Positions 12,041-31,458 of a stretch of 64,000 bases of DNA are shown here, in pieces. A program made the translations under genes and the position numbers. Source of the DNA: an uncultured Flavobacteriaceae bacterium (lineage in GTDB: Bacteria > Bacteroidota > Bacteroidia > Flavobacteriales > Flavobacteriaceae); the NCBI GenBank assembly GCA_947504035.1, contig CANNGA010000004.1, positions 1-64,000 of the forward strand, given 5' to 3'. The notes under the pieces were generated by a model. The model was not told the origin of the DNA and did not search any database. It worked only from the letters and a program-made list of their open reading frames with translations. Numbering within the stretch: the first letter of the stretch is position 1; each line of letters begins with the position of its first letter.

Positions 12041-12114
12041 GGGCTCTTAGCTCAGCTGGATAGAGCACCTCCCTTCTAAGGAGGCGGTCGAAGGTTCGAA
12101 TCCTTCAGGGCTCA
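12041..12114 (+). tRNA. tRNA-Arg(TCT)
   Basis: The 74-nt cloverleaf can be drawn by eye: acceptor GGGCTCT/AGGGCTC (G-T pairs included), D stem GCTC/GAGC, anticodon stem CCTCC/GGAGG with loop CTTCTAA (anticodon TCT, reading AGA), T stem GAAGG/CCTTC with loop TTCGAAT, discriminator A. CCA is not encoded. Its 3' 14 nt form most of the island's attachment core, so integration preserved the gene. The serine recombinase reads antisense through it up to 12047. Confidence 0.96.
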
Positions 12115-13681
12115 CTAAAGCGGATTTTTTATCAAACTGGATAAAATTTCCGCTTTTTTTATTCCCTATATTACTCGTCATTTCTGGGATTAGCGAGAAA
12201 AATGAATTTACTCTAGTGGTTCGAACTTGGTCTAATTCGTGATTATAGAAGATTCCGTCAGGAAATAGCATTTGCTGAAAAACTTTTTTATTCTCCAAAG
12301 TAGAAGATTCCCATAACGGTAAGACATTGGTAGATGTTTTGGTAACAAAATTGATTACTTTTTTGAGGTTCGAACTGTATCCACTTGTTTTTTCAACTTC
12401 TTGTTCAATTTCAAAATATTCTTTTTTGTATTTAGAACTGTATTTATCATAAAGCTGTCTATCTATTTCGCCAATAACAAATCGTTCTTCGATATTCTCT
12501 AATTTCTTTTTAAGTGTATTTAGGTTGGTTTTTAAAATCTTTTCATTCTCTGTTTTTGACTTAAAAAACACACCCATTTGTTCTTCTAGTTGAACCTTGA
12601 TAATTTCTAGTTCTTCTTTTTCAATCTTAAAAGAAGCAAGTGCTTTATTAAACAATTCGTGCATTGCTTTGGCACTACGATTTACTTTACATCCTTTTGT
12701 GCGACACTTGTAGTAATATAGATTTTTATTTTTCACTAAATAACCCGTCATTCCTTTTCCACATTTTTCACATTTTGTAAAAATTTTTAAGGGTAGGTTA
12801 TCGTTGTCTTTATTATGTACAAATCCGTGTATGCGTTTTTCTTTTCTAATATTATGAACTTTTAAAAAAAGTTCTTTAGAAATCATAGCTTCATGATTTC
12901 CTTGAATTACTTGGTCTGGAATCATTTTACTTGTGATTAACCCACAATAGAAAGGATTTGAAAATAAATCGTTTAAACGTTTCTCTGATAGGTTAATTCC
13001 CATCTTTTTTAAACGTCTTACAATTTCTACGTTTGGTAATTGGCTGTAAGCTTTCCATTCAAAAGCCTTTTTTAGCAGTTTTCCTTCTTCATTAACCACT
13101 AATTTACGTTCTGTAGCTTTTCCTTTATTTAAGTCCTCATACCCTCTAGGAACAGCCCAAACCCAATATCCTTTTAAGAGTAGTTCTTTCATTCCTGTAA
13201 CGGTTTTATCTCTTCTTAATTCATTATCCATTTGTCCGAAGAGGAAAAATATTTTTTGCTGAAAAGAACCAGACGGAGTAGTTGGGTCAAGTTCTTGTGT
13301 AATTGCTAATGTAATAACACCATACTTTTTAAGTAGTTCTTCAGCAATTGATGCTCCATTAATCCCCGAACGTGAAAATCGTTCGTAAGAATACACAATA
13401 ATATAGTTGATGTTTTTAGAGCGTTTTACAAACTTTAATAATTGATTAAACTCTTTTCTGTCATCTGTTTTTGCAGATTCGTATGTACCGCCAAAATATC
13501 CAACAACATTTAGGTTTCGTCTTTGTGCATATAAATCACAATGCTTTTTTTGAGAAGCTAAACTGGTATTATCCTCTTGATCGCTGGAGGAAACCCGAGT
13601 ATAAATAACAGCATTATTACCTTCTTGAAATTTTTTGGGAGCTTTGGGAGCGAATTGTTTGAAAAGAGTTAAGTTATCCAT
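12047..13681 (-). CDS. Large serine recombinase of the island
   Basis: Length 544 aa. Residues 22-160 are the resolvase catalytic domain (AVIYTRVSSSDQ with probable nucleophile Ser31; YERFSRSG with Arg101 and Arg104). A recombinase domain follows (residues about 175-290, RRLKKMGINLSEKRLNDLFSNP truncated here to key residues LSEKRLNDLF), then a zinc ribbon (Cys304, Cys307, Cys326, Cys331) and a coiled coil (about 350-430). Such proteins insert circular DNA at attB by serine-linked strand exchange. Residues 523-527 (VSPEG) are encoded by the att core, and residues 528-544 (starting FEPSTASLEG) are tRNA antisense. The C-terminus is therefore supplied by the integration site. A 65-aa gene lies 66 bp upstream. 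Confidence 0.93.
   Translation of the reverse strand: MDNLTLFKQFAPKAPKKFQEGNNAVIYTRVSSSDQEDNTSLASQKKHCDLYAQRRNLNVVGYFGGTYESAKTDDRKEFNQLLKFVKRSKNINYIIVYSYERFSRSGINGASIAEELLKKYGVITLAITQELDPTTPSGSFQQKIFFLFGQMDNELRRDKTVTGMKELLLKGYWVWAVPRGYEDLNKGKATERKLVVNEEGKLLKKAFEWKAYSQLPNVEIVRRLKKMGINLSEKRLNDLFSNPFYCGLITSKMIPDQVIQGNHEAMISKELFLKVHNIRKEKRIHGFVHNKDNDNLPLKIFTKCEKCGKGMTGYLVKNKNLYYYKCRTKGCKVNRSAKAMHELFNKALASFKIEKEELEIIKVQLEEQMGVFFKSKTENEKILKTNLNTLKKKLENIEERFVIGEIDRQLYDKYSSKYKKEYFEIEQEVEKTSGYSSNLKKVINFVTKTSTNVLPLWESSTLENKKVFQQMLFPDGIFYNHELDQVRTTRVNSFFSLIPEMTSNIGNKKSGNFIQFDKKSALVSPEGFEPSTASLEGRCSIQLS
12101..12115 (+). repeat. Left att core (3' end of tRNA-Arg)
   Basis: TCCTTCAGGGCTCAC occurs here and again at 31409-31423, in direct orientation. 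The first 14 bases are the 3' end of the tRNA. This marks the island's left boundary. Confidence 0.85.
12117..12160 (+). terminator. Island-borne terminator serving tRNA-Arg
   Basis: A 17-bp stem with two mismatches (AAAGCGGATTTTTTATC with GATAAAATTTCCGCTTT) is followed by T. It starts 2 bp after the att core and lies inside the 3' coding end of the recombinase on the other strand. Confidence 0.7.
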
Positions 13682-13747
13682 GGTTTTAAGTGTTGAATAT
13701 CAATAACAAAGATATAGGTATTGGTAAGTTTTGTGTAAAAACCAATG

Positions 13748-13945
13748 TTAAATAATATTTTGATCTTGTACATTGATAGCTTCTAATACGAGTAAAGAAA
13801 AGGTTTCAGCGTTTTTAATAAGCTGATTATATCCTTCAGGAGATATGTTTCTATACTTAGGAATTTGACGTATTTTTTCTATAGGTAATCGTTTCTTAAC
13901 CCTCTGAGTAGCTTGTTCTATATTTTCCTTATTAATATGTTGCAT
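13748..13945 (-). CDS. Small hypothetical protein upstream of the recombinase
   Basis: Length 65 aa, starting MQHINKENIEQATQRVKKRL and ending in EAINVQDQNII. It is highly charged and predicted helical, with a YRNISPEGYNQLIKNAETFS segment. No signal peptide or membrane segment. It precedes the recombinase by 66 bp on the same strand and could act as an accessory factor or directionality partner. That role is inferred from position only; I do not recognise a named family. Confidence 0.5.
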   Translation of the reverse strand: MQHINKENIEQATQRVKKRLPIEKIRQIPKYRNISPEGYNQLIKNAETFSLLVLEAINVQDQNII

Positions 13946-14488
13946 AGGTTCATAAATAGAAGCACGTTCTTTACTTCTTTTTATAAACTTATAGCTTTGG
14001 TAGGCTGTAATTTACTAACAAATAAAATCGTCTTTATTTGTCGTTAATTGTCTGATTTTATTATAATAGCGTCAGGGATTTACATCTGGAATTTTAAATT
14101 TTAAGGGGTTTGTAATAAATGAAGCTTTTATCATTTTTCGGGACAACGAAAAACGAGCAGGATATAAGTAGTTCTAATTTGAAAATTGTTGCTTTTTTCG
14201 TTTAACTGTCTGTACACTCAAACACAAAAACTTCCAAAAGAACTGCTAGATATCCTTATGGAACTTGTAAAGACTATACAAGTTTTAGAAAATAATAAGG
14301 TATCTACTTCCTTGAAAATACGAGTATTTTACTACGTCGTATACACACCTAATTATCTCCTAAAAGTCTTGACAAATTCCACTTCATTCATTTTGTTATG
14401 AATGGAAAACCAAACTAATACCCCCCTTAAAATTATTTTTAAAAAAACACAACTTATTTTTTACTGGTGAATAACAATATCACATTAT

Positions 14489-14676
14489 AACTAGTTAGCT
14501 AGTTGTACTACTGTATAGTAAGCCATACTTTCATCTGTTTGCACGATTTACTAGTTAACTAGTAGGACTCTCAGCTATAAATATTTCTGTATAGCCAGTC
14601 ATACAGATGTTTGAGTGGATGACTAGCTAGCTGACTAAACGGCTAACTGTATCGCCGTATGTCTGGCTATACGGCG
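14489..14676. repeat. Cluster of short palindromes and hairpins
   Basis: Within 190 bp lie AACTAGTTAGCTAGTT (14489-14504, near-palindrome), ACTAGTTAACTAGT (14550-14563, perfect), CTGTAT...ATACAG (14587-14606), AGCTAGCT (14625-14632), and CGCCGTAT...ATACGGCG (14653-14676, perfect 8-bp stem, 8-nt loop). GTATAGCCAGTCATAC and GTATGTCTGGCTATAC are inverted copies of each other with one mismatch. No open frame explains this. It may be a replication, partition or transfer control region of the mobile element. The surrounding gap 13946-15278 has no gene I can support. Confidence 0.55.
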
Positions 14677-14892
14677 TTACGGCAATACATCAAGAAAAAC
14701 AGCTCTTTCGTTCCATTTCTCTTAACGATTTCATTTAGTTGTACCTAATGGCTTTGGGTGTCTTGTTTTATCTCTGAATATCATAGTGTTATTGTCATTT
14801 ATCCATTTTTAATTTGTAGTGAGCAGTTTTAGGGTAGGTGATATCGCATCATTACATTAAAATCCATTAGAAAACTGTTCAGCGGAACAGAG

Positions 14893-14947
14893 CAAGTTGT
14901 GTAATGAGTGCCTCAAAAATGCTTTTGTGCCTCTCATTACAAACTTG
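14893..14947. other. oriT-like long inverted repeat
   Basis: CAAGTTGTGTAATGAG (14893-14908) and CTCATTACAAACTTG (14933-14947) are inverted copies with one extra base, separated by 24 nt. Inverted repeats of this size next to mobilisation genes often mark origins of transfer in Bacteroidota elements. No relaxase is present in the window, so the role is inferred. Confidence 0.4.
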
Positions 14948-15278
14948 TCCTACGGAGTTTAAAATCCCTCCGAAGTCGAGGATTTTTGAATATATATTGG
15001 TTTTTTGAAATAAGAGCGAAGATATTTTCGCACGAAAAATTCATTATAATTAAAATAAAAACCTAAATGGTTATTATTTTAGACAGAAAAAGTATTAAAG
15101 AAAGACATTTTTCTAGCTATATAAAGATGATTATTAATAGTGAAAAAGTATCAAAAAATAGAAAAATGATTACTATAATTTAAAATTAGTAAGAATATGC
15201 AGGCTTACCAAACTTAAAAACACGCATAATGTATTCGATTCGAAAAGGTTTAGAAAATGAATAAAAATATATTAATTC

Positions 15279-15902
15279 TTATAACTTCTTAACTCTTAGT
15301 TTTTCAATTTCTTGAACAGTTAACCCAGTAGAAAAAGCAATCGTTTCATTATCAACTCCTTTTCTTTTAAGTTGTTTGGCTATTTCTATTTTCTCTTGTC
15401 GTTTCGCAATCTTAGAAGCTTCTTCCTTAATGCGTCGCTCTAATTCATATTTAGGCACATACTTTGTGCTTTTCTCTAGTTTCTCTAGCAAGCCAGTATC
15501 TTTAAAACTTAAATAACTTTTATAGGTAATAATTAAATGATCTATTACGGGAGTATTTACAATTAGCCCTACTTGTATTAATTTGTCGGTAATATCTTTG
15601 TCTGCATCAGAGGGAGTGAGTTCTCCGCTAGGGTGGTTATGACACAGAATGATTTTTACTGCTCGTTTTTGTAATGCTAAACTAAATACCTCCATTGGTT
15701 CAGCAAGTGTTTTGTTTATTGTCCCTAAACTGATTAATTCAATGAATAAAATACGATTATTATTCTCTAAACCAATTACCCAAAAGTGCTCTCGGTTTTG
15801 GTCTATTTTACCTTCACGGAGCAAAATCTTTTGCATGATTCCGTAAAGGTCGTCTGAGTTTAAGATTTTTATTTTTTCGGCTTCGGTTAAATTAATATCC
15901 AT
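15279..15902 (-). CDS. RadC-like JAB-domain protein with extra C-terminal tail
   Basis: Length 207 aa. Residues about 30-145 are the RadC/MPN domain typical of Bacteroidota mobile elements, with a complete JAMM metal motif: His88, His90, Ser98, Asp101 in CHNHPSGELTPSDAD. Despite the RadC name, a DNA-repair role is not proven for this family. Element-borne relatives are normally about 150 aa. Here residues about 150-207 add a charged helical tail (ELERRIKEEASKIAKRQEKI, then NETIAFSTGLTVQEIEKL) like the C-terminus of PD-(D/E)XK 'Rpn-type' transposase proteins. No partner gene is close by. Confidence 0.85.
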   Translation of the reverse strand: MDINLTEAEKIKILNSDDLYGIMQKILLREGKIDQNREHFWVIGLENNNRILFIELISLGTINKTLAEPMEVFSLALQKRAVKIILCHNHPSGELTPSDADKDITDKLIQVGLIVNTPVIDHLIITYKSYLSFKDTGLLEKLEKSTKYVPKYELERRIKEEASKIAKRQEKIEIAKQLKRKGVDNETIAFSTGLTVQEIEKLRVKKL

Positions 15903-16213
15903 AAAATCAAAATTATAATTTTAAATTTAAAAATATAAGTTCTCATACATGCTTTTTTTTATTAAAAAGCTTAATTCTTTAAGATGGCTTATTGTTTGGT
16001 TTACAGTTGATAAAATAAATAGAGCCGTTCAAGAGAAGATTACATTACATCAATTAACTTTAGATTGCGTATCAGTATCTATCACTTTTTCCTGTATGAT
16101 TACTAAATGATGGTAAATCAATCTAGTGAAATGAAAAGTAATGACCATTCAAATTGCAACCATTAAATAAGAATCCTGAAATTATTTGCACAACCATTGC
16201 ATCAAAAAAGTAT
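15903..16213. other. Intergenic stretch without a gene
   Basis: About 310 bp between the divergent RadC-like gene and the metal operon. I see no gene; only the -7 box at its right end stands out. Confidence 0.5.
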
Positions 16214-16221
16214 TATCTTTG
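16214..16221 (+). promoter_or_regulatory. -7 box of the plus-strand metal operon
   Basis: TATCTTTG fits TAnnTTTG and ends 5 bp before the ATG at 16227, so the first gene is probably leaderless. Confidence 0.5.
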
Positions 16222-16226
16222 TTTGG

Positions 16227-16544
16227 ATGAAATTTTTAGCTTCCATATTAGCTATAACAATGTTAGCATTATCTACAATGCCTTGTTCTGATGGTCAAAA
16301 TTTTGAAGACCAACAGCACGAAGAAATTAGTGCAGAACATAATCACCAAGAAGATAGTGATGATTCTTGCCCAATGACTTGTATTTGTAATTGTTGCGGT
16401 ATGTCAATAACTTATGAGCCTTTAGCAACATATGAGTTATTGAGTTTTTATAAAATTTCTACTCAATTAATTTCTACTTATCAATCAAATTATAGATTTG
16501 ATTTTCATTCTAATATTTGGCAACCGCCACAAGTAATTAGCTAA
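16227..16544 (+). CDS. DUF6660-like small exported Cys/His protein
   Basis: Length 105 aa from ATG 16227; an earlier start would break the signal peptide. The signal sequence is MKFLASILAITMLALSTMPC. The mature part is acidic and metal-ligand-rich: EDQQHEEISAEHNHQEDSDD is followed by CPMTCICNCCGMS with five Cys. It resembles the DUF6660 family found beside TonB-dependent receptors in flavobacterial metal loci (recognised from memory). Probably a periplasmic or outer-membrane-associated metal-binding accessory of the receptor encoded 47 bp downstream. First gene of the operon. Confidence 0.75.
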   Translation: MKFLASILAITMLALSTMPCSDGQNFEDQQHEEISAEHNHQEDSDDSCPMTCICNCCGMSITYEPLATYELLSFYKISTQLISTYQSNYRFDFHSNIWQPPQVIS

Positions 16545-16591
16545 AAAAACGATTTTAAATAAACTATTTAGTTAATTACAATTATAATTCA

Positions 16592-18778
16592 ATGAATAAA
16601 TACTTATTGAGCATAAAGCTCGTATTAATACTTTGCCTATCGTTAAAGGCACAAACATCAGACATACAAATAAAAGTCATCACAGAGGCTGAAAACGAGC
16701 CTCTAATGGGTGCTACAGTTTACTTTGAAGCATTAGAAAAAGGGGCTGTAACCAATTTTAATGGTATTGTAGAATTTACAGAAATACCAGATGGTCAACA
16801 TCAAATAATAATTTCCTTTTTAGGTTTTGAAACATTTGAAACCACAATTCAAGTTCCAAGTAAAACAGAATTAATATTTAAACTAAAAGAAGGAGGTAAT
16901 GAATTGGATGAAGTTGTACTTAAATCTACAAGAAGTACAAGAACTGTTCGAAAAATACCAACGCGTATAGAGTTTATTGGTGCAGAGGAATTAGGCGAGA
17001 AAGCAATAATGAACCCTACTAATATTTCTATGGTACTTCGTGAAAGTACAGGAATACAGATGCAACAAACATCATTAAGTAGTGGGAGTACAAATATTCG
17101 TATTCAAGGATTGGATGGTAGGTACACACAGCTTTTAAGAGATGGGTTTCCATTATATGGTGGTTTTTCAAGTGGATTAAGTATTTTACAAATACCACCT
17201 TTAGACTTACAACAATTTGAGATTATTAAAGGAAGTTCATCAACACTTTATGGTGGAGGTGCTATTGCAGGATTAGTAAATATGGTATCTAAAACACCAG
17301 ACGAAGAACCTGCATTAGACATAATGCTCACGCAGACACAAGCATTAGGAAGTACAGCCAATGTATTTTATAGCAAACGAAATGAAAAATTCGGTGTTTC
17401 ACTTTACGGCTCTGGTCACTATCAAAAAGCGTATGACCCAGAAGATGATGGTTTTAGTAATTTACCAAAAACGACATCAATTTCATTTAATCCTAAATTA
17501 TTTTATTATCCATCAGATAAAACAACACTTTGGTTTGGATTAAACGGAACGTATGATGATAGAATTGGCGGAGATATTACCAAAATTGAAAATGGTGAAG
17601 ATGGTATTCATCAATACACAGAAGAAAACAACTCAAAACGATTAAGCAGTCAATTTGTGTATCAAACACAACTAGATTCTGTTAGTTCATTAGAGTTTAA
17701 AAATAGTGTCTCTTTTTTCGATAGGAATTTAACAGTTCCTGATTTTAATTTTGATGGTAAGCAAACAAACACTTTTACTGAAGTCTCTTATAGCACAACA
17801 TCAGATAAAACGGATTGGATAGTTGGAGCTAATCTATATACCTCAAATTTTGATGAAAATGATAACGCACCATTACAGCGTGACCAAAAAGATGTGACCT
17901 TTGGAGCATTTGCAAATAATATTTACGACATATCGGATAATTGGATATTGGAAACAGGATTAAGAGCAGATTACAATACTGATTTCGGTTTCTTTCCACT
18001 TCCAAGAATTTCATTACTTTATAAAACCAATAGTTGGTTTTCAAGTAGAATTGGTGGAGGTTTAGGGTATAAGATTCCAGATATTTTTACAGAAGAAGCA
18101 GAGTATATTAACTTTGAAAATGTGCTTGCAATAGATAAATCTACAGTAGATGCAGAACGTTCTTATGGTGTTAATTTTGATTTGAATTATCAAACTCGTC
18201 TATCTGATGAGATTGGTTTTTCTGTAAATCAATTATTCTACGTGACTGCAATAAATGATGGATTGCTTTTAAATTCAAAAGATAACGGATTATTTCAATT
18301 TGAAAATGCACCAGATGAAATATTTAGTAAAGGAGCAGAAACAAATATAAAATTTACATATAAAGACTTTAGATGGTTTTTAAACTATGCGTTTATTGAT
18401 ACCAAACTAAATTATTTACCTGGTAATCCACAGAAGCCATTAACCGCAAAGCATAATGCAGGTAGTGTTTTAATGTACGAATCTGATAAGTGGAGAATAG
18501 GTTATGAAACCTACTATACTGGAAAACAATTTTTATCTAATGGAACAGAAACCACAGATTTTGTAACCATGGGTTTATTGGTTATGCGTAATTTTAAATT
18601 AGGAAGTGTATTTGTAAATTTTGAAAACTTTACAGATAGAAGACAAAGCAGGTTTTCACCTTTGGTTTTACCACCGCACCAAAATCCTGTTTTCCCAGAA
18701 ATATATGCGCCTACAGATGGTTTTATTTTTAGTGTAGGGCTTATTATTAAACCATTTGGAAACGAAGACCACGATTAA
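16592..18778 (+). CDS. TonB-dependent outer-membrane receptor
   Basis: Length 728 aa. Signal peptide (MNKYLLSIKLVLILCLSLKAQ cleaves near residue 21); CarboxypepD-regulatory-like domain (about 25-105); plug domain (about 120-235; LDEVVLKSTRST, NIRIQGLDGRYTQLLRDGFP, GSSSTLYGGGAIAGLVNM); then a 22-strand barrel of the usual length ending GLIIKPFGNEDHD, with a His/Asp-rich extreme C-terminus. Size and the missing SusD partner point to an ion or siderophore-type receptor, not a glycan importer. Its position between a Cys-rich exported protein and a Fur-like regulator suggests a metal substrate; which metal is unknown. Confidence 0.9.
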   Translation: MNKYLLSIKLVLILCLSLKAQTSDIQIKVITEAENEPLMGATVYFEALEKGAVTNFNGIVEFTEIPDGQHQIIISFLGFETFETTIQVPSKTELIFKLKEGGNELDEVVLKSTRSTRTVRKIPTRIEFIGAEELGEKAIMNPTNISMVLRESTGIQMQQTSLSSGSTNIRIQGLDGRYTQLLRDGFPLYGGFSSGLSILQIPPLDLQQFEIIKGSSSTLYGGGAIAGLVNMVSKTPDEEPALDIMLTQTQALGSTANVFYSKRNEKFGVSLYGSGHYQKAYDPEDDGFSNLPKTTSISFNPKLFYYPSDKTTLWFGLNGTYDDRIGGDITKIENGEDGIHQYTEENNSKRLSSQFVYQTQLDSVSSLEFKNSVSFFDRNLTVPDFNFDGKQTNTFTEVSYSTTSDKTDWIVGANLYTSNFDENDNAPLQRDQKDVTFGAFANNIYDISDNWILETGLRADYNTDFGFFPLPRISLLYKTNSWFSSRIGGGLGYKIPDIFTEEAEYINFENVLAIDKSTVDAERSYGVNFDLNYQTRLSDEIGFSVNQLFYVTAINDGLLLNSKDNGLFQFENAPDEIFSKGAETNIKFTYKDFRWFLNYAFIDTKLNYLPGNPQKPLTAKHNAGSVLMYESDKWRIGYETYYTGKQFLSNGTETTDFVTMGLLVMRNFKLGSVFVNFENFTDRRQSRFSPLVLPPHQNPVFPEIYAPTDGFIFSVGLIIKPFGNEDHD

Positions 18779-18780
18779 TC

Positions 18781-19194
18781 ATGAAAACAATAGAACAACT
18801 ATTAGAGTCAAAAAATATACGTGTTACCGCAATGCGATTATTAATTTATAAGTTTCTTGCTGAAAAAAAGGTAGCAGTAACATTGAGTGATATAGAAAAT
18901 GCATTTGAAAAAGCAGATAGAACAACACTTTATAGGACTATTAAGACTTTTGAAGAGAAAGTCATTGTTCATCAAATAGACAATGGTACAGGAATTACCA
19001 AATATGCGTTATGCGAAGAGGGATGTAATTGTGATATAAAAAACGATTTGCATCTACATTTTCATTGTAATAATTGTAATGAAACCATTTGCTTAACAGA
19101 CCATAAAATACCTCAAATAAAGGTTCCTGACGGTTTTGTTTCAGAAAATGTAAACTTGGTTGTAAAAGGTATATGTGATAAGTGTAGTGGATAA
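18781..19194 (+). CDS. Fur-family metalloregulator
   Basis: Length 137 aa, 2 bp behind the receptor gene. N-terminal winged helix (LLESKNIRVTAMRLLIYKFL; recognition helix DRTTLYRTIKTFEE). Dimerisation domain with regulatory-site residues HLHFHC (His91, 93, 95) and two CxxC pairs (Cys96/Cys99 and Cys132/Cys135), the structural zinc site of Fur/Zur proteins. The spread of Cys (also CEEGCNCD at 78-84) resembles Zur-type more than iron Fur. It probably controls this operon in response to zinc or a related metal; inferred from its position. Confidence 0.9.
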   Translation: MKTIEQLLESKNIRVTAMRLLIYKFLAEKKVAVTLSDIENAFEKADRTTLYRTIKTFEEKVIVHQIDNGTGITKYALCEEGCNCDIKNDLHLHFHCNNCNETICLTDHKIPQIKVPDGFVSENVNLVVKGICDKCSG

Positions 19195-19250
19195 CAAATG
19201 CACTTCCATTGCACTTACTATTAAATTACTTTTATCCAAAATTAGTGGAT

Positions 19251-19613
19251 ATGAAGTTTAATACTAAAATACCTAAACATATCAAACAGGCGTATAACGA
19301 AGAATTAAAACAATACAGTTTCTGTTTAGAAAATAAGCGTTTTGGTAATGCTTGGTTTCATTTAGAACGCAGTCATATAATAGGACAGTCTTATCCTATA
19401 GAACATACCTATTCACATTGGCTAATGCTAAAGTTTGGATTTAGACAAAAAGATACTAAAGAAGTATTCGGTCAAATTATTAGATTGCTTGTTGGTGGTT
19501 GGAAATCATTTATAAATCACGTTCCTCTTGGTAATACAGGTGGCGCAAACGTACCACCATTAAAACGTATGCCTATTCCAAATGACATTGAAAAATTATT
19601 AGATATAGAATGA
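19251..19613 (+). CDS. DUF3703 family protein
   Basis: Length 120 aa from ATG 19251 (MKFNTKIPKHIKQAYN); a start 42 bp upstream adds residues foreign to the family. Family features: FGNAWFHLERSHIIGQSYP, EHTYSHWLMLKFGFRQKD, and a basic C-terminal segment VPLGNTGGANVPPLKRMPIP. DUF3703 proteins recur in mercury/heavy-metal operons; the His-rich centre (HLERSHIIG, EHTYSHW) could bind metal. Cytoplasmic. Its stop overlaps the start of merTP by 4 bp, so the two are translationally coupled. Confidence 0.85.
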   Translation: MKFNTKIPKHIKQAYNEELKQYSFCLENKRFGNAWFHLERSHIIGQSYPIEHTYSHWLMLKFGFRQKDTKEVFGQIIRLLVGGWKSFINHVPLGNTGGANVPPLKRMPIPNDIEKLLDIE

Positions 19614-20203
19614 AAAATAAATTAGCGATTACAAGTATCCTAACAGCAATCACAGCTTCATTGTGTTGCATCACACCTGTTTTGGCATTAATTGCAGGAA
19701 CAAGTGGTGTAGCTTCAACTTTTTCTTGGATAGAACCATTTAGACCTTACTTAATAGGGCTAACTATATTAGTTCTTCTCTTTGCTTGGTATCACAAATT
19801 AACACCAGAAAAAGAAATCGACTGTGAATGTGAAACGGATAAAAAACCAAAATTTATTCAGTCAAAAACCTTTTTAGGCATTGTAACAATATTCGCAATA
19901 GTGATGTTGACATTTCCATACTACTCAAGTATATTTTATCCAAACAGCGAAAAACAAATCATAGTAGTCGATAAATCAAATATCAAAACAACAGAGTATA
20001 AAATAAGCGGAATGACCTGTGCCAGTTGTGAAGCACACGTAAACCACGAAGTAAATAAACTTAACGGAATTATAAACTCAAAAACATCATACGAAAATGG
20101 TAACGCAATCATTGAGTTTGACAAAACAAAAACAAATGAAGCGGAAATTGAGAAAGCAATTAATTCTACGGGTTATAAAGTAACTGACAAAAAAGAAAAT
20201 TAA
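19610..20203 (+). CDS. merTP: MerT-MerP fusion mercuric/metal transporter
   Basis: Length 197 aa. The N-terminal membrane part has a MerT-like first helix with the vicinal pair Cys19-Cys20 (SLCCITPVLALIAG) and a cytoplasmic loop with CEC (72-74). A further TM helix (FLGIVTIFAIVMLTF) leads to a C-terminal HMA domain (residues about 128-192) with GMTCASC, metal ligands Cys137 and Cys140. In known MerTP proteins the HMA part passes Hg(II) to the membrane cysteines for import. No mercuric reductase is encoded in this window, so the ion may instead be Zn, Cd or Pb handed to the adjacent ATPase. Confidence 0.9.
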   Translation: MKNKLAITSILTAITASLCCITPVLALIAGTSGVASTFSWIEPFRPYLIGLTILVLLFAWYHKLTPEKEIDCECETDKKPKFIQSKTFLGIVTIFAIVMLTFPYYSSIFYPNSEKQIIVVDKSNIKTTEYKISGMTCASCEAHVNHEVNKLNGIINSKTSYENGNAIIEFDKTKTNEAEIEKAINSTGYKVTDKKEN

Positions 20204-20409
20204 TGAAAACCATATTAAAATCGGAAATCACTTGCCCTAACTGCGGATATAAAAAAGTGGAAGATATGCCTACTAACGCTTGTCAATTCTTTTACGAGTG
20301 TGAGCATTGTAAAACGGTTCTAAAACCAAACGAAGGAGATTGTTGTGTGTATTGTTCTTATGGAACAGTTCCTTGTCCACCAATTCAACAAAACAAAAGT
20401 TGTTGTTAA
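20203..20409 (+). CDS. Small Cys-rich 'GDCC' zinc-ribbon-like protein
   Basis: Length 68 aa with 11 Cys. An N-terminal CPNC (11, 14) and CEHC (33, 36) make a zinc-ribbon-like pair; GDCCVYC (46-51) and PCPP follow, and the protein ends CC. The start codon shares one base with the merTP stop, so it is coupled to it. Related small proteins with the GDCCVxCSYGT signature accompany MerTP and P1B ATPases in Bacteroidota (recognised as a pattern, function not known to me). A soluble metal buffer or chaperone between MerTP and the ATPase is plausible. Confidence 0.8.
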   Translation: MKTILKSEITCPNCGYKKVEDMPTNACQFFYECEHCKTVLKPNEGDCCVYCSYGTVPCPPIQQNKSCC

Positions 20410-20419
20410 AACTAACTTG

Positions 20420-22372
20420 ATGAAAAAAAAGAAAGTCAATTTAAGAGGTTTAAAACCAAATTCAGAAGAACAACATTCTCACGATGATGGTCACGACCAC
20501 GGAGATGGTAGTGCATTCAAAACATACATTCCTGCTATTATAAGTTTTGTTATGTTAATTGTAGGTATCGCTGTAGATTATTTTGATTCCATTCCTCAAT
20601 TTAAAGGATGGATTCGATTAGTTTGGTACACTTTAGCATATATTCCAGTTGGATTTCCTGTAATCAAAGAAGGATGGAAAAGTCTTATAAAAGGCGATGT
20701 TTTTACCGAGTTTTTTTTAATGTCTATTGCTACAATTGGTGCATTTATAATTGGTGAATATCCAGAGGGTGTTGCAGTAATGTTATTCTATGCGGTAGGT
20801 GAATTATTTCAAAATGCAGCAGTAAACAAAGCAAAAGGAAACATTAAAGCACTATTAGATGTTAGACCAAAAGAAGCCAATGTGTATCGTGATGGTGACT
20901 ATATAAGTGTGTCGCCCGAAGATGTAAATATTGGAGAAAAAATTCAAATTCGAGTAGGTGAAAAAATCCCTTTAGATGGTAAGTTGTTATCCTCAAAAGC
21001 ATCATTAAATACTTCAGCTTTAACAGGTGAGAGTAAACCAGATTCTGTTTTAAAAGAAGCTAAAGTATATGCAGGGAGTATCAATTTGGATAGTGTTATT
21101 GAAGTTGAAGTAACCAATAAGTTTGAAGATAGTTCAATTGCCAGAATATTAGACTTGGTTCAAAACGCTACTGCACGTAAATCTAAAACAGAATTATTCA
21201 TCAGACAGTTTGCACGTATTTATACGCCAATTGTAGTTTTTTTAGCTATAGGTGTTACTTTTCTTCCTTACTTTTTTGTAGATGATTATGTTTTTAGAGA
21301 TTGGCTTTACAGAGCATTAATTTTCTTGGTGATTTCTTGCCCTTGTGCATTGGTGATTTCTATTCCGTTGGGTTATTTCGGTGGACTGGGAGCAGCTTCA
21401 AAAAATGGCATTCTATTCAAAGGTGCTTCATTTTTAGACGCCATGACCAGAATTAACACGTTGGTAATGGATAAAACAGGAACAGTTACCAAAGGTGTTT
21501 TTAAAATAAAGAAAGTCAAAGCTATTGGTTGGGAAGAATCCGAATTTATGAAATACCTGATGGCTATGGAAGAACAGTCAACCCACCCTATTGCAAAAGC
21601 CATTATGGAGTATAAAGAGAATGGAGATGGCTATGAAGCAAAAGAAGTTTCAGAAATTGCAGGTAAAGGCTTAAAAGGAATAGTAAACGGTAAGACTGTT
21701 TTAGTAGGAAATAAAGCTTTGATGAATACAAATGACATAGATGTTCCAACTGAAACAGATTCTATTGTAGAATCAATAGTGTTGATGGCAATAGATAATA
21801 ACTTTGCAGGTTATGTGGTCATAGCTGATGAATTAAAAGAAGATGCTAAACAGACAATAACAGAATTACAAAAAGTTGGTATCAATAAAATAATGATGCT
21901 TTCGGGTGATAAAGACTCTATTACTCAACAAGTCGCCAAAGAGTTAAATATCGAAAATGCTAAAGGTGGATTATTACCAGAAGATAAATTAAACAAAGTT
22001 GAAATTTTAAAGAAAAATCCTGAAAACAAAGTGGCTTTTATTGGTGATGGTATTAATGACGCACCTGTTTTAGCAGCAAGTAATGTTGGTATTGCTATGG
22101 GTGGTTTAGGTAGTGATGTGGCTATTGAAACAGCAGATGTCATTATTCAAACAGATCAACCTTCTAAGGTAGTTAGAGCTATTAAAATAAGCCGTTCAAC
22201 TCGCAAAATAGTGTGCCAGAATATTATATTGGCTTTTGGGGTCAAAGTAATTGTTTTAATTTTAGGTGCAGGTGGTTTAGCAACGATGTGGGAAGCTGTT
22301 TTTGCAGATGTAGGAGTAGCATTATTAGCAATCTTAAATGCAATTAGATTACAACGAATGAGTTGGAGATAA
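20420..22372 (+). CDS. Heavy-metal-translocating P1B-type ATPase
   Basis: Length 650 aa from ATG 20420; an upstream GTG would overlap the Cys-rich gene. It exports metal ions across the inner membrane using ATP. Motifs: His-rich N-terminal leader (HSHDDGHDHGDG) in place of an HMA domain; actuator loop TGESKPD; transmembrane ion site CPC at 307-309 within ISCPCALVIS; phosphorylation Asp351 in DKTGTVT; STHPIAKAI; GDGINDAPVL. The CPC type with these flanks fits the Zn/Cd/Pb (ZntA/CadA) group. Fourth gene after the Fur-like regulator in a tightly packed operon. Confidence 0.93.
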   Translation: MKKKKVNLRGLKPNSEEQHSHDDGHDHGDGSAFKTYIPAIISFVMLIVGIAVDYFDSIPQFKGWIRLVWYTLAYIPVGFPVIKEGWKSLIKGDVFTEFFLMSIATIGAFIIGEYPEGVAVMLFYAVGELFQNAAVNKAKGNIKALLDVRPKEANVYRDGDYISVSPEDVNIGEKIQIRVGEKIPLDGKLLSSKASLNTSALTGESKPDSVLKEAKVYAGSINLDSVIEVEVTNKFEDSSIARILDLVQNATARKSKTELFIRQFARIYTPIVVFLAIGVTFLPYFFVDDYVFRDWLYRALIFLVISCPCALVISIPLGYFGGLGAASKNGILFKGASFLDAMTRINTLVMDKTGTVTKGVFKIKKVKAIGWEESEFMKYLMAMEEQSTHPIAKAIMEYKENGDGYEAKEVSEIAGKGLKGIVNGKTVLVGNKALMNTNDIDVPTETDSIVESIVLMAIDNNFAGYVVIADELKEDAKQTITELQKVGINKIMMLSGDKDSITQQVAKELNIENAKGGLLPEDKLNKVEILKKNPENKVAFIGDGINDAPVLAASNVGIAMGGLGSDVAIETADVIIQTDQPSKVVRAIKISRSTRKIVCQNIILAFGVKVIVLILGAGGLATMWEAVFADVGVALLAILNAIRLQRMSWR

Positions 22373-22493
22373 TTTAAAATTACAATCAGAACATTATCTT
22401 AGGACTAACAATTGAACTAATAGATTTGAACATAGAGTATAGTTTTAAAAACTGAACCATGAACAAATTTTTTATTTCCGAATTAAAATTTTA

Positions 22494-22577
22494 TTATTTA
22501 ATTCCACTATTCATAAAACTCACTATAATCTCAAAATCTTCAAGAAGAAAGTTCGATACTTCTTCCGTTGGACTCAC
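22494..22577 (-). repeat. Scar of a recombinase 3' end (attR-like) inside the island
   Basis: On the minus strand this reads VSPTEEVSNFLLEDFEIIVS followed by FMNSGIK and a stop. The copy at 31334-31423 reads VSPEGEVSNFLFQDFEIIVS then FINCKSSRF and a stop. Both are short, stand without the rest of the gene, and are followed on the plus strand by an intrinsic terminator. They look like two related recombinase C-terminal tails left at the right ends of two integrated elements. Confidence 0.65.
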
Positions 22578-22610
22578 AAAAAGAGATAAATTTAATATTT
22601 ATCTCTTTTT
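22578..22610 (+). terminator. Intrinsic terminator after the internal scar
   Basis: AAAAAGAGATAAAT (22578-22591) pairs with ATTTATCTCTTTTT (22597-22610). It sits directly behind the scar, just as a different terminator follows the right att site at 31424. Confidence 0.65.
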
Positions 22611-22712
22611 ATTTCACTGAATATCAGTTGTTTATAGTAGGTGATTCGATACTTATCTTATCTGCTTTGTTTTATTTTTTTTGACTTAAGATATTGTTTT
22701 TCATGGTTTTAT

Positions 22713-22725
22713 GGTTCGAATCCTT
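22713..22725 (+). repeat. tRNA T-arm-like fragment (possible attL scar)
   Basis: GGTTCGAATCCTT matches 12093-12105 of tRNA-Arg over 13 bp. On the minus strand the context reads SDFKGFEP then a stop, echoing the SPEGFEP of the integrated recombinase tail. No full cloverleaf can be drawn. T-arms are alike in many tRNAs, so the origin is uncertain. The remainder of the 374-bp gap 22373-22746 holds no gene. Confidence 0.4.
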
Positions 22726-22746
22726 TAAAGTCTGAAAATAATATTT

Positions 22747-23175
22747 TTAATGAATTTCTTTTTTCACTTCACTATATTGATTCATAGCCATTTCATGGTC
22801 GTATTTACAACACCCAGGTAAACCGTCGTAAGCATCTATATCACCTGCCACTTTTTCGGTATCGTAACCTGAAGCTGCAATTGCTTTGTGAATTGCCATT
22901 GCATCGGTTTTCGAATCATCAAAAGAAACATCTATTTTCTTTTTATCGACATCCCAATTGGCACTTGCAACACCTTCAACACCGTTAGCTGCCTTTTCGA
23001 TAGTGCTTTTACACATACCGCAATTTCCTCTTACACCAAAAGACAACTCTTTCATTGCCATATCTTTAGATATTTCAGTAGTTGTTGTAGTTTCTGTTTC
23101 TTTTTTGGTTTCGTTTTTACAACTTGTTAAACCTAACGCTGCTATTACAGCGATACTTAAAATTACTCTCTTCAT
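22747..23175 (-). CDS. HMA-domain lipoprotein
   Basis: Length 142 aa. Lipoprotein signal MKRVILSIAVIAALGLTSC with Cys19, a Thr-rich linker, then a heavy-metal-associated domain (about 42-110) with GNCGMC (Cys52, Cys55) as the metal pair. A C-terminal GLPGCCKYDHEMAM segment adds two more Cys and a His. Probably a periplasmic copper(I) or related metal carrier feeding the efflux pump. Last gene of the minus-strand cus operon, 20 bp after cusB. Confidence 0.88.
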   Translation of the reverse strand: MKRVILSIAVIAALGLTSCKNETKKETETTTTTEISKDMAMKELSFGVRGNCGMCKSTIEKAANGVEGVASANWDVDKKKIDVSFDDSKTDAMAIHKAIAASGYDTEKVAGDIDAYDGLPGCCKYDHEMAMNQYSEVKKEIH

Positions 23176-23195
23176 TGTTTAAAATTTAATTGTTA

Positions 23196-24968
23196 TTATT
23201 CTATTATTTGTTTTACTTCTCCACAGGTTAGCATTGCATCACCAAAATATGGATTGATTACTTTTTCTTCTTTGCTCAACCAAAACGCACCCTTGTTATT
23301 ATCTGCCATTGGACAAAATTCTAAATAGACTTTTTCATTTACACCAAATAGTTGAACAGCATTGATTAGATGTGATGACAAATGCTTGAAATGGTCTCTT
23401 TGTGCTTTTATATCGGACGCTTTAGAAATAGAAGTTGTAGAAGATTTAATTTCCTTTTCTAATGACATCCAATGTTTATGCGCCTTATTATCTGATAACA
23501 ATTTCATATCTACTTTGGTTAAATTGTTTAGTAAAGTAGATGCGCTTGTTGAAGCACTTTTTGAATCTTCTTTTACTAAAGCATCTTTTAAATTGATATA
23601 CTCATTGTAAACACTATTTAACTGTTGTTGAAATTTCTCTGATACTTCCAAACGTTCATTCATATTGGTGTGGTCTGTTTCTTTGTTGGATGAATTGTTA
23701 TCCATACCTAAATGACCTTCGTGACCAGTCATTACTTTACCACCATCTTTATTCATCATTGATTTCTTGCCTTGTAATTGTGCTGCTGCATCAACCGTAA
23801 AGGCTCCGTTAGTCACTATTTCATTTCCAACAAATAAACCTTCTACAACTTCATATTCATTACCAATTTGATTGCCTAATTTAATTTCACGCATTTCAAA
23901 AATAGGTTGGTCAGGATTTGTTTTAAGATACACCACAGAACGCTCACCTGTCCATAACACAGCAGATGCTGGAATAGATAAAGCTTCTTTATTTTCATTC
24001 TTAACACCATCAATATTTGCGGTTACAAACATTCCTGGTTTAAATACATCATCCTTGTTGTTTAGAACCACACGCAAGGTTACTGTTCTTGTTTTTGTGT
24101 TTAAAACTGGGTCTATAAAATCGACTTTACCTCTAAATTCTTTATTAGAATAGGCATTGGTTGTAATCATTACTTCCTGTCCTTTTTCAAACAAATCAAT
24201 CTGATTTTCATACACATCAAAATTTCCCCAAACTGTGTTTAGATTGGCAATTTTTAATAAAGGTTGACCTTGTTTAATATAATCACCTTGCTCTACCAGT
24301 TTTTCTGCGACAGTTCCTGAAACTGTTGCATACACAGGAAAGTTTTCCTTCACTTTTTGGGTTTCTTCAATCTGATTGATTTGATTTTCAGAGAGCTTCC
24401 AAAGTTTTAATTTATTACGCACTGCTTTGTATAACGCAGGTTGTGATTCTTTTAAAGATGCTGCTGTAATGAGTTCTTGTTGTGCTGCATACAATTCTGG
24501 CGAATAAATAGTTGCCAATAATTTACCTTTACGGACTTCTTCGCCAGTAAAACTCACATTTAAACGTTCAATTCTTCCAGAGAAATAACTGACTTGTACT
24601 GCATTGGCTTCTTCATTTTCAGCAATTTTACCAGATAGTTTTATGGTATTGCCTTCTAGATTGCCTTTACCAACAACAGTTGTTTGGATATTTGCCAGAG
24701 CCATTGCATTTTCAGTCAGTTTAAATTCGTCTACTGCCAAACCATCAGCGCCAGCTTCTGAAGGAATTAAATCCATACCACAAATGGGGCAATCTCCTGC
24801 TTCTGGTTGCATAATCTGTGGATGCATTGAACAGGTCCACATTTGATTGGTTTCTGTAACTGCATCGTGATTATGGTCTGTTTCGTCTTTTGATGAGCCA
24901 CCAAAGAGTATCCACCCTAAAAGTAGACCTACAGCTAATATTCCAATATATATTATATACTTTTTCAT
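23196..24968 (-). CDS. cusB: CusB-type RND periplasmic adaptor with metal-binding and DUF3347 domains
   Basis: Length 590 aa, longer than a plain CusB (about 400). N-terminal anchor (MKKYIIYIGILAVGLLLGWI), then a heavy-metal-binding domain WTCSMHPQIMQ...GDCPICGMDL (Cys46, His49, Cys60, Cys63). The adaptor core spans about 85-400 (barrel-sandwich, short helical hairpin, beta barrel, membrane-proximal domain; GTVAEKLVEQGDYIKQGQPL). A Met/His linker follows (TGHEGHLGMDNN), and about 435-590 is DUF3347-like, containing FCPMADNNKGAFWLS. It links CusA to CusC and passes metal to the pump. Overlapping or abutting neighbours show one operon. Confidence 0.93.
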   Translation of the reverse strand: MKKYIIYIGILAVGLLLGWILFGGSSKDETDHNHDAVTETNQMWTCSMHPQIMQPEAGDCPICGMDLIPSEAGADGLAVDEFKLTENAMALANIQTTVVGKGNLEGNTIKLSGKIAENEEANAVQVSYFSGRIERLNVSFTGEEVRKGKLLATIYSPELYAAQQELITAASLKESQPALYKAVRNKLKLWKLSENQINQIEETQKVKENFPVYATVSGTVAEKLVEQGDYIKQGQPLLKIANLNTVWGNFDVYENQIDLFEKGQEVMITTNAYSNKEFRGKVDFIDPVLNTKTRTVTLRVVLNNKDDVFKPGMFVTANIDGVKNENKEALSIPASAVLWTGERSVVYLKTNPDQPIFEMREIKLGNQIGNEYEVVEGLFVGNEIVTNGAFTVDAAAQLQGKKSMMNKDGGKVMTGHEGHLGMDNNSSNKETDHTNMNERLEVSEKFQQQLNSVYNEYINLKDALVKEDSKSASTSASTLLNNLTKVDMKLLSDNKAHKHWMSLEKEIKSSTTSISKASDIKAQRDHFKHLSSHLINAVQLFGVNEKVYLEFCPMADNNKGAFWLSKEEKVINPYFGDAMLTCGEVKQIIE

Positions 24969-24969
24969 T

Positions 24970-25707
24970 TTAAAAGATGTTTAATAACATTAATATTGCC
25001 ATTACAATCATAATAGCATTTTCAATAAAAGTGGCTTCTGTCATAGGTAATTTTAAAGCAGTACCTAAACACGCACATTGTATTGATTTTTTGTCCAATA
25101 ATGTTTTTGTTACTCCAATAGTTGTTATCCCTAATACTATTAGTGTAATTTTTAAGGCTATATTGATTTCAAACCGCATTAAAAACATTAGTCCTAAAGC
25201 TGTTTCAATAAATGGATAAACTTTCCCATAAAAAGGAACACGTTTAGCTAAAGGGTCGTACATACGGAAGGATTCAGGAAAACCTTTTAAATCTAACATC
25301 TTGAAAAAACTAAAAACAATGTAGAATAAGCCCATAAAGTCGAGCATAAACGCACTCCAACTCCAATTTTTATAATGTAATAATATACTTGCTGTTGCTA
25401 TATAAAAGATGATTAGCAATAGTGGTTTGAGTTGTTGTAATTTGCTTTTTTCTTCTTCAATTTCAAAAGTTGAAGATTGCGTAGAAGTAAAAACATTTTT
25501 TACCTCTTTTTGAGTTATGGTATATTTTGATGCTAAGGATTTTTGAAGTTCTACAATATCAATATGTTTATCCATAGTTATTGTTGCTTCTTGATTTTCA
25601 AGATTAACTTCGACATCGGAAACATCATCTATATCTCTTAAACTTTTTTCTACAGATGCTTTACAACTGCCACAGGTCATTCCTTTTATTATATATATAT
25701 GTTTCAT
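24970..25707 (-). CDS. HMA domain fused to MauE/DoxX-like membrane protein
   Basis: Length 245 aa. Residues 1-66 are a cytoplasmic-type HMA domain with GMTCGSC (Cys12, Cys15). Residues about 95-245 hold four transmembrane helices of the MauE/DoxX-like type, with QCACLG (a CxC pair) between the third and fourth. Fusions of this kind recur in Bacteroidota copper/silver operons. A role as an inner-membrane metal-transfer or redox partner of the efflux system is inferred. It lies 1 bp upstream of cusB and 4 bp downstream of cusC. Confidence 0.85.
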   Translation of the reverse strand: MKHIYIIKGMTCGSCKASVEKSLRDIDDVSDVEVNLENQEATITMDKHIDIVELQKSLASKYTITQKEVKNVFTSTQSSTFEIEEEKSKLQQLKPLLLIIFYIATASILLHYKNWSWSAFMLDFMGLFYIVFSFFKMLDLKGFPESFRMYDPLAKRVPFYGKVYPFIETALGLMFLMRFEINIALKITLIVLGITTIGVTKTLLDKKSIQCACLGTALKLPMTEATFIENAIMIVMAILMLLNIF

Positions 25708-25711
25708 TTGT

Positions 25712-26929
25712 TTACTGAATTAAATAGTTGATAATTGTACTTTGCACATAGTAAGTCTTCACAGATTCTATTTGGTTCATTTGAAACTTTAGTTGCAACT
25801 CTTGAATATCCAAAACATCATTAAAATCAATCGTTCCTGTTTCATAGCTTTTGATTAAAATATCTTCTGCATCTTTAGCTTGCTTTAAGTTTTTGGTTTG
25901 GGTAGCATAACTTATTCTTGCAGAAATGCGTTCGTTAATCGCTTTGTCTAAAAGAGTTTCCAATGAATTTAAACGTTCCTGTTTTTGAGCAGTAATTTCC
26001 TGCTGTTGCAACTCATTTTGTTTGGTTTGGGATTTATATTTCTTATTGAAAATTGGTATGGACACTGACACCATTGGCATTACAATATCTTTTCCGTTGT
26101 TACTAAAATCCATATTTGGTCTTTCAGCAACATTGATATAATCTAACCCAAAACCAATCATTGGACTGCTTTCTTTTTGATTTAATAATTCTGATTGCTC
26201 TATGGATTGATAGAGTTTATCATATTTTAGTAATTCAGGATGTAATGCTAAATTTTCAGAAGTAATATCAAAGTCTTCTGAAGGTATCAGTAAACTATCT
26301 ACCACATTCACAGTAACATCATTATCTCTATTCAATAAATTATTGAAGTTAGTTTGTTCTGCTAAAAATTGTTGTTGCAATACATCTTTTAATTGTTGCA
26401 TTTCGTTTTGACGCATTTGCAATCGCAACACATCTACTGCGGATGCTTTACCAACTTCAACAGAAGTTAATGCCAACGTCTCATAAGTTTCTAATAGTTT
26501 GATGTTTTCAGTTAAGACTTCTTGCTTTGCTTTGTTGGCGTATAGATTATAATAGGATTGTGATACCGAAGCTATTAGTTTTCGCTTTGCGATAACAATG
26601 TCTTCGTATTTAGCATCCGCTAATGAACTCACGTAATTTTCTCTCGAAGTAATAGTCCCAAACCACGGTAACATTTGTTTTGCTGACACTTTAAAGCGTT
26701 GCGCACCTGTTCTTGTTTCTGGCTCACTTACAAAATAGCCTACACCAAATTCGGTATTGGGAATGGTATTCACTTCGTTTACTTTTTCAGAAGCTCTTTT
26801 GTATTGTAACTCGAACTTTTGAATTTCTGGATTGTTTGATTCTGCTTCTTGAATGTAGGATTGAAGCTCTTGTGCTTTCGCGAAAGCGGAAACAAACAAA
26901 ATGCTGATTATTAGAATTATATTTTTCAT
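25712..26929 (-). CDS. cusC: CusC/TolC-family outer-membrane efflux protein
   Basis: Length 405 aa. Signal peptide MKNIILIISILFVSAFAKAQ. Two long alpha-helical repeats of the OEP fold: first half LQSYIQEAESNNPEIQKFEL, EVGKASAVDVLRLQMRQNEM; second half ETGTIDFNDVLDIQELQLKF. This is the outer-membrane duct of the tripartite pump. The start codon overlaps the cusA stop in an ATGA arrangement, so expression is coupled. Confidence 0.92.
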   Translation of the reverse strand: MKNIILIISILFVSAFAKAQELQSYIQEAESNNPEIQKFELQYKRASEKVNEVNTIPNTEFGVGYFVSEPETRTGAQRFKVSAKQMLPWFGTITSRENYVSSLADAKYEDIVIAKRKLIASVSQSYYNLYANKAKQEVLTENIKLLETYETLALTSVEVGKASAVDVLRLQMRQNEMQQLKDVLQQQFLAEQTNFNNLLNRDNDVTVNVVDSLLIPSEDFDITSENLALHPELLKYDKLYQSIEQSELLNQKESSPMIGFGLDYINVAERPNMDFSNNGKDIVMPMVSVSIPIFNKKYKSQTKQNELQQQEITAQKQERLNSLETLLDKAINERISARISYATQTKNLKQAKDAEDILIKSYETGTIDFNDVLDIQELQLKFQMNQIESVKTYYVQSTIINYLIQ

Positions 26930-30633: not shown

Positions 30634-30742
30634 TGGCTTTGATAATTTAACAATTAGACATTGGTGTTTGGAAAACACCGAATACAGCAAATTATCCTTA
30701 CGACATTGCTGTCATAGGATAAAAAAGTCTATTGTTTAAAAA

Positions 30743-31156
30743 TCAAATTAAGTATGTCTCGTCAATCTTGTAGAGTTGCCTGACGACGAGTGGTGGTTTG
30801 TATTCTTCGTAAGTAGATACATTATTGTCTAAACCTTCAAAAAGGTTAATATAAGTATAAACAAATGAAGCTATAAATAGGTGTTGCTCAAACGTAATTT
30901 TATCAACTTGCAGTTGTAGTTCATCTTGACCTTCAAATGCTAATTGTTCATCATTACAACAATTTTTCTTGGTAATAGAACACCCTTCAGTAGATGGTTT
31001 ATCCATTTCCATTCCGCAACCTTTGGCTTTTTGAAATATGGCAGTTTCTACTAAAGTATCTCCACAATAATGCATATTCACAGTAAATGACATTGTAGAG
31101 AATAACACTACTAAAGCCATTGCTAAAGACATTATTTTATGAATTATATTTTTCAT
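30743..31156 (-). CDS. HYC_CC_PP family protein
   Basis: Length 137 aa. Signal peptide MKNIIHKIMSLAMALVVLFS. The family name's three signatures are all present: MHYCGD (His29, Tyr30, Cys31), CC at 66-67 in KKNCCNDE, and PP in EYKPPLVV near the C-terminus; Cys47 and Cys59 add ligands. Small exported proteins of this kind precede cus-type operons in Bacteroidota and probably bind copper or silver in the periplasm (inferred). First gene of the six-gene minus-strand operon, 109 bp before cusA. Confidence 0.9.
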   Translation of the reverse strand: MKNIIHKIMSLAMALVVLFSTMSFTVNMHYCGDTLVETAIFQKAKGCGMEMDKPSTEGCSITKKNCCNDEQLAFEGQDELQLQVDKITFEQHLFIASFVYTYINLFEGLDNNVSTYEEYKPPLVVRQLYKIDETYLI

Positions 31157-31333
31157 CTATGAAGCAAAGATACAATTTTTAAAAAATTAAAATACAGAAT
31201 AAGTTTTTGAGATATACCAAATGAATAAAGAGTGGCTAAATTTAATTGTCCTCCTCTTTTCTTTAAGCTCAAAAAGATAGAGAGAAAGAAGTGATTCTAT
31301 TTTTTTATCTAAATACTTTATAGTATTCTGAAA

Positions 31334-31423: not shown

Positions 31424-31458
31424 AAAAATCCTCACTATTTATTTAGTGGGGATTTTTT
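31424..31458 (+). terminator. Probable original terminator of tRNA-Arg
   Basis: AAAAATCCTCACTA pairs with TAGTGGGGATTTTTT (one mismatch) and starts at the first base after the right att core. It would have terminated the tRNA before the island inserted. The rest of the gap to 31764 holds only an unsupported 61-codon frame. Confidence 0.65.

Follow-up and report, generated by a model that had tools for sequence, protein, structure and literature searches.

The window, by which we mean the whole stretch of 64,000 nucleotides analysed here from an uncultured Flavobacteriaceae bacterium (contig CANNGA010000004.1), carries a composite island next to a tRNA-Arg(tct) gene, and at the tRNA end of the island lies the gene for a large serine integrase. 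The reading frame of this gene crosses the att core and continues in the antisense of the tRNA (Table 1). Pfam matches in the island cargo revealed RadC (15279-15902, the ORF of at least 100 aa next to the recombinase), a TonB receptor, Fur-like and MerT-like proteins, an E1-E2 ATPase, HMA proteins, and CusB-like, OEP and AcrB-like proteins. Locus L235 of a congener genome, G788, lacks the island: directly after its tRNA-Arg(tct) comes a terminator with 1 mismatch in 23 bases to the right flank of the window, and over the 1115 bp that lead up to and include the tRNA 3' end the two loci are 85.7% identical. This empty site shows that the island is an insertion with the boundaries given in Table 1.

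Table 1. Features of the integrated island and its attachment sites, in window coordinates
Feature	Position	Strand	Remark
tRNA-Arg(tct)	12041-12115	+	integration target, attB side of attL; empty site in L235
Large serine recombinase ORF, integrated state	12047-13681	-	544 aa; starts in island, ends in tRNA-Arg(tct)
Recombinase codons 1-522	12116-13681	-	encoded by element
Recombinase codons 524-544 and stop	12047-12112	-	antisense tRNA-Arg; arbitrary tail of integrated form, predicted disordered
att core copy at attL	12101-12115		15 bp, common to 31409-31423
Intrinsic terminator hairpin for tRNA	12117-12160	+	element-derived; overlaps final recombinase codons
Island	12116-31423		cargo of heavy-metal type; composite, second P' arm within at 22577
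Internal second P' arm	22494-22577	-	encodes VSPTEEVSNFLLEDFEIIVSFMNSGIK and a stop
Distal P' arm	31334-31423	-	GTG, then TCGAAC at offset 21; encodes VSPEGEVSNFLFQDFEIIVSFINCKSSRF and a stop
Native host tRNA-Arg terminator	31424-31466	+	displaced by island

The recombinase contains a Resolvase catalytic domain (PF00239, residues 24-171, E 3.4e-23) followed by a Recombinase domain (PF07508, residues 197-281, E 6.7e-10), and its recombinase domains are of the serine type only, none being tyrosine. A putative zinc ribbon (PF13408) scored 20.4 bits, under the cut-off of 25.3, but its residues C304, C307, C326 and C331 are nearly invariant. In an AlphaFold2 model of the integrated form (37 sequences; mean pLDDT 73.5, pTM only 0.35), helices 355-402 and 408-432 after the zinc ribbon are predicted to form a long coiled-coil insertion, and order extends only to about residue 498; residues 499-544, including those encoded by the tRNA, had a pLDDT <50. 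Residues V523-G527 are the antisense reading of 12115-12101, with codon 523 (GTG) corresponding to the final three bases of the tRNA, and the next 17 residues, FEPSTASLEGRCSIQLS, also come from the tRNA. Starting from 31423, the same frame reads VSPEG followed by EVSNFLFQDFEIIVSFINCKSSRF and a stop, 24 residues past the core. A preliminary description of this DNA had reported a frame that crosses the core, enters antisense tRNA-Arg and stops at 12047, with a tail of 17 residues in the chromosome and 24 in the circle; upon re-reading both frames, its coordinates and residue counts held. The PHROG family phrog_4647 matches residues 522-544 (12047-12115), which are antisense tRNA only, and is probably a family built in part on such read-through ends.

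The 15-bp core occurs in the whole window only at its two copies, even with up to 2 mismatches allowed (chance expectation, 0.05 matches). In 18 gene/tail pairs of the family, the stretch common from the V codon was exactly 4 bp in 11, never less, and 14 bp at most. The 15-bp repeat described earlier is present at both ends of the island, but the family-wide common core is ~4 bp and the 15 bp shared with the 31423 end are a long case. Given the 4-bp common stretch, strand exchange most likely begins at the GTG of codon 523 (GTG/CAC, 12113-12115). The spacing pattern of the P' arm, the attP half that lies past the crossover, occurred twice in the window (0.02 expected). Because of the second P' arm at 22577 (minus strand), a circle could join the recombinase gene to either tail, giving a possible excising unit of 10.5 kb or 19.3 kb; the previously proposed junction between the 31.4 kb and 12.1 kb ends is possible, but the internal arm offers an alternative. 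Past the internal P' arm, at 22578-22612, we observed a terminator-like hairpin (AAAAAGAGATAAAT..ATTTATCTCTTTTT) unlike known recombinase gene ends.

The arrangement at the gene end is common to a family of recombinases. Exact peptide patterns identified 56 distinct loci in genome contigs, which together with the two full copies in the window's genome gave 58. In 45 of the 58, a tRNA or tmRNA gene was called no more than 250 nt from where the recombinase ends, always antisense (45/45), and the targets were of nine kinds (Arg 19, Met 14, Val 3, Lys 2, Phe 2, tmRNA 2, Ala 1, Gln 1, Leu 1). The frame stopped inside or beyond the antisense tRNA or tmRNA in 43 of the 58 loci, the two copies of the window's genome included, and recombinases with only ~25% identity to that of the window (L222, L223, L226, L227) likewise end antisense in tRNAs. 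Two loci, L023 and L035, stop short of the tRNA, and L035 has a deletion. Among the 13 loci without a called tRNA, L008 and L032 run to the contig end. In L011, L025, L026, L028/L029, L033 and L044, inspection by eye revealed the first part of a tRNA 3' end after the junction, from which the sequence then departs; these sites were possibly already cut by another element. A distant relative (24% identity) in a Candidatus Omnitrophota MAG (L059:5651-7246) lies near tRNA-Asn, and its end (..WLPREDSNLGPSG and a stop) looks like the other frame of an antisense tRNA T-arm. In the window's genome, a stop-ridden C-terminal recombinase fragment near tRNA-Asn (G000:C9:126280-126780; L003) probably represents an ancient remnant of such a gene end.

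Among non-redundant gene ends (collapsed from 54 junctions; L008, L023, L035 and L059 excluded), 21 of 21 have codons ahead of the core that fold into a hairpin with a T-run when read in the direction of the tRNA, and these hairpins (mean -20.7 kcal/mol) were more stable than all 100 mononucleotide shuffles. The gene end is peptide, att arm and replacement tRNA terminator together, and since it doubles as a hairpin, that second role may be the reason why the peptide immediately ahead of the core is conserved.

On the far side of the crossover, TCGAAC starts 21 nt from the start of the GTG in 39 of 44 P' arms; on the tRNA side the offset was 16 nt in 32 of 45 loci, with four more scored as 15 through a word starting one base early and nine unscored. 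TCGAAC is thus 5 bp further from the crossover in the P' arm than in the tRNA T-loop, which fits the known attP/attB rule; the same 5-bp motif shift between attP and attB is reported for the LI (A118-type) integrase (PMC3783163). This shift points to the universal T-loop box as what the zinc ribbon recognizes. The P/B side gave no clear motif; an inverted zinc-ribbon motif sought in the P arm stayed at or below 0.6 bits per position between -18 and -26 and is not claimed.

At the distal ends of the elements, the tail that the circle would encode is a conserved peptide, V....[EQ][VI]SNFL.ED. These ends were located with the P' spacing pattern and a profile of the tail; an exact-repeat search for the distal att mostly failed because the common core is only ~4 bp. 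The profile matched at E<1e-6 in 24 of 37 recombinase-carrier genomes; 12 carriers had supplied its rows, and among the 25 that gave no row, 12 matched at this threshold. In a sample of the phylum, 3 of 395 genomes matched at E<1e-6 and 14 at 0.01, the three all being carriers (the window's own genome and two with coordinates equal to those of G006 and G027). Within the genus, only the window's own genome among 12 matched at E<1e-6, the other close carrier, G787, giving only E 7.6e-4.

Tail and gene are also linked in position. The 45 best gene places and 50 tail places with E<0.01 gave 27 same-contig pairs (23 contigs; 10 to 181 kb apart), and in all 27 the tail was 5' of the gene and on the gene's strand; weaker rows were excluded from this count, and one such pair, G037:C321 (tail E 0.079), does not fit the arrangement. 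A recombinase search in twelve tail-candidate genomes, 11 of them obtained via the tail profile and G333 via a junction query, gave a match in 10. Tail and best recombinase were on one contig in six, with the same arrangement in five (G580, G117, G223, G762 and G268); they were on opposite strands in G039, an out-of-sample genome, and on different contigs in G554, G258, G333 and G494. The tail recurs with recombinases of 25-100% identity. This recurrence across the family favours the earlier proposal, against which homologues lacking a conserved tail would have counted, and a single gene that can end in two ways, depending on its state, is supported.

Three other P' arms in the window's genome (G000:C12:122516 and 125008, i.e., L062:14516- and 17008-, and G000:C21:36163 in L189) are all preceded by AAAGCGATTTAATTAAAATT; the first two, 2.5 kb apart, suggest tandem or stripped elements. 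At two loci, L107 (8866-9036) and L035 (11178), we observed the end of a recombinase gene running in frame into a P' arm, most (L107) or part (L035) of the recombinase being absent; in L107, 33 recombinase-end codons continue into the tail with no stop, the closest natural trace of the fused frame. Both fusions are relics, left in the chromosome, of a junction like that of attP. None of the plasmid, phage or IMG/VR records and none of the 395 genomes of the order contained an intact gene with its native tail attached: the 89 plasmid and 146 phage records that match were all <60% identical, and the three pattern matches in IMG/VR included no relative by tblastn. One place suggested in those 395 genomes by a joined gene-end and tail query, G000:C21:36118, is a distal end and not a fused gene.

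We consider the best explanation, with a probability of roughly 0.58, to be that the conserved tail is made only from the circle and acts there, most likely in integration or against its reversal, and that the integrated form lacks it. Behind this reading stand the architecture of the locus, the 5-bp shift, the positional link between tail and gene, and the conservation of the tail in the fused frame. The large serine integrase, with a gene that terminates within its own attP, would move the island; the zinc ribbon probably reads the TCGAAC box of the tRNA T-loop and the same box 5 bp further out in P', so that a single enzyme family could work on many tRNAs. On the circle, the gene would continue past the crossover, at the GTG of codon 523, to the P' arm and gain a conserved tail of ~20-33 residues. 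Upon integration, the tail-coding end would be left at the far side of the island and the gene would be joined to the antisense tRNA, which would give it an unstructured stretch of arbitrary length. Since the tail can be produced only from the circle (or a tandem copy), that is where it would act, either in integration (attP x attB) or to prevent the reverse reaction as the likeliest roles, and integration would end production of the integrating form. The chromosome would make the tail-less form, which may be excision-competent or idle.

Alternatively, the P' arm may be conserved only as a DNA half-site of attP, with an incidental frame and a tail without a role; we regard this as improbable, although it survives better than the other alternatives. 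The codon data bear on it directly. Among 36 non-redundant tails (from 44 of 47; SN at codons 8-9 and >16 letters required), S8, N9 and D14 were invariant, SN being required by the filter and D14 not, and identity by codon position was 0.52, 0.73 and 0.44. The fused frame was open over codons 10-19 in 36 of 36 tails, against 2 and 11 for the other frames, and the mean BLOSUM score was 2.06, against 0.10 ± 0.44 for permuted columns (0/300 as high), both values being raised by the way the tails were found and filtered, in that a protein profile favours conserved residues and an open frame. Quantification of differences in 19 independent profile-found pairs revealed a synonymous excess (47.7 synonymous differences in 129.8 sites, pS 0.37; 106.3 nonsynonymous in 554.2, pN 0.19; p=2.2e-5), which persisted in 17 pairs without the doubtful tails L178 and L215 (p=3.8e-6). 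As a control, P' arms were collected by DNA pattern alone from 1,468,298 bases, giving 13 matches, 10 of them non-redundant and nine of these tails (L156 is not). Here the fused frame was open over codons 10-19 in 10 of 10, versus 1 and 2 of 10 for the other frames, and the synonymous excess was not significant (4 pairs, pS 0.37, pN 0.28, p=0.23; all distinct copies, p=0.11). The 19-, 17- and 4-pair tests replace a first one on 17 tails with non-independent pairs (pS 0.33, pN 0.20). The open fused frame is well supported without the search bias, and selection on the tail less so.

A DNA constraint acts too, as S8-N9 coincide with the TCGAAC box (TCG in 31/36, AAC in 32/36) and Asp14 is GAT in 36 of 36 tails and never GAC; at Asp14 it is likely present besides a protein constraint. 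These codons, like the lack of a significant synonymous excess in the DNA-found set, are what a pure half-site would give. However, protein conservation extends past codon 20, some 60 nt, which exceeds the 24-bp half-site of the LI integrase (PMC3783163); Leu, Ile and Glu in the tail are each kept through several codons; in the DNA-found set the fused frame is the one that stays open; and the profile-found set has its synonymous excess.

Less probable still is that the tail acts as a state-dependent degradation or stability signal, the circle form being short-lived and the integrated form stable, or the reverse. The conserved part of the tail is codons 5-18, and the extreme C-terminus varies in length and sequence, a pattern that an ssrA-like tag is not known to share. 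The idea nevertheless has a precedent in the BPs repressor, where attP lies in the gene and an ssrA-like C-terminal tag is lost on integration (PMC4557955). We give slightly less weight to the possibility that nothing past about codon 498 of the element-encoded part is of importance and that both tails are inconsequential read-through. The predicted order ending near residue 498 agrees with this, as do L023 and L035, which stop before the tRNA (L035 with a deletion), and McMurdie et al. offer low-efficiency translation with a variable C-terminus as the trivial explanation for DsiB (PMC3146451); the recurrence of the tail with recombinases as divergent as 25% in identity and the codon signal in the tails argue otherwise. 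Very improbable is a function, for instance in excision, of the tRNA-encoded end, for which the preliminary description left room: the T-loop frame is the same in most loci and yields G[FLIV][EK]P, but that recurrence stems from tRNA sequence conservation, and the length past the motif varies, with a stop 35 to 239 nt past the tRNA end and a predicted disordered stretch.

The preferred reading, a circle-only tail most likely used in integration or against its reversal, has several partial precedents. The closest is DsiB of Dehalococcoides, an ssrA-specific serine recombinase of ~540 residues whose 3' end always overlaps attL and which has no stop before the tmRNA; its authors proposed that it is perhaps fully functional only on the circularized element (McMurdie 2011, PMC3146451). 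DsiB differs in having ssrA as its sole target, where the present family uses many tRNAs, and in adjoining the small serine recombinase DsiA (PMC3146451), where the next ORF of at least 100 aa here is RadC. By the description in the available text, a conserved circle-encoded tail is unreported for DsiB and the sequences are said to diverge there (PMC3146451). The integrase gene of phage Mx8 also contains attP (PMC6070905, PMC4383910), and integration creates a new 3' end that is reported to alter integrase specificity (PMC6070905); however, Mx8 is grouped with tyrosine integrases in the Islander paper and uses other att sites (PMC6070905, PMC4383910). Archaeal SSV-type suicidal integrases likewise carry the target site within the integrase gene, but are tyrosine recombinases whose gene is split by integration (PMC8371274). 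A118/LI-type integrases share the domain order and the 5-bp zinc-ribbon motif shift between attP and attB, whereas the available text holds no report of an att site in the integrase gene or of tRNA targets (PMC3783163). Serine integration into tRNA genes is called rare, with two cases given (PMC3218068). Serine recombinases target a tRNA gene in phiRSM (PMC3816273) and Mycobacterium AICEs (PMC3218068), but only one tRNA each, and in phiRSM the att site lies between ORF14 and ORF15 and the integrase is described as a small serine recombinase (PMC3816273). In mycobacteriophage BPs, integration alters the C-terminus and activity of a protein whose gene contains attP, but that gene is the repressor and the mechanism a degradation tag (PMC4557955). 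The available parts of PMC12884075 and PMC10083194 do not mention an integrase 3'-end swap. Although att sites inside integrase genes are already known (Mx8, DsiB), the conserved circle-only tail seems new; we found no report of one in the literature searched, which left out most subscription papers.

More tentatively, these loci may represent a widespread class of serine integrases in which an attP-encoded tail makes the protein integration-competent, integration strips the tail from later copies so that the DNA rearrangement itself is the switch, and the tRNA is chosen by T-loop reading through the zinc ribbon; we hold this generalization to be possible and no better than that. The arrangement explains serine recombinases in databases whose C-termini are antisense tRNA, and the family could be a source of integrases able to land at many tRNAs. 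What makes a serine integrase integrate or excise is of central interest both for mobile DNA and in tools for genome engineering, and a family where recombination decides the protein form would make the question of direction directly testable. In this Bacteroidota family, the swap at the tRNA could act as an intrinsic switch that sets whether the element inserts or remains where it is.
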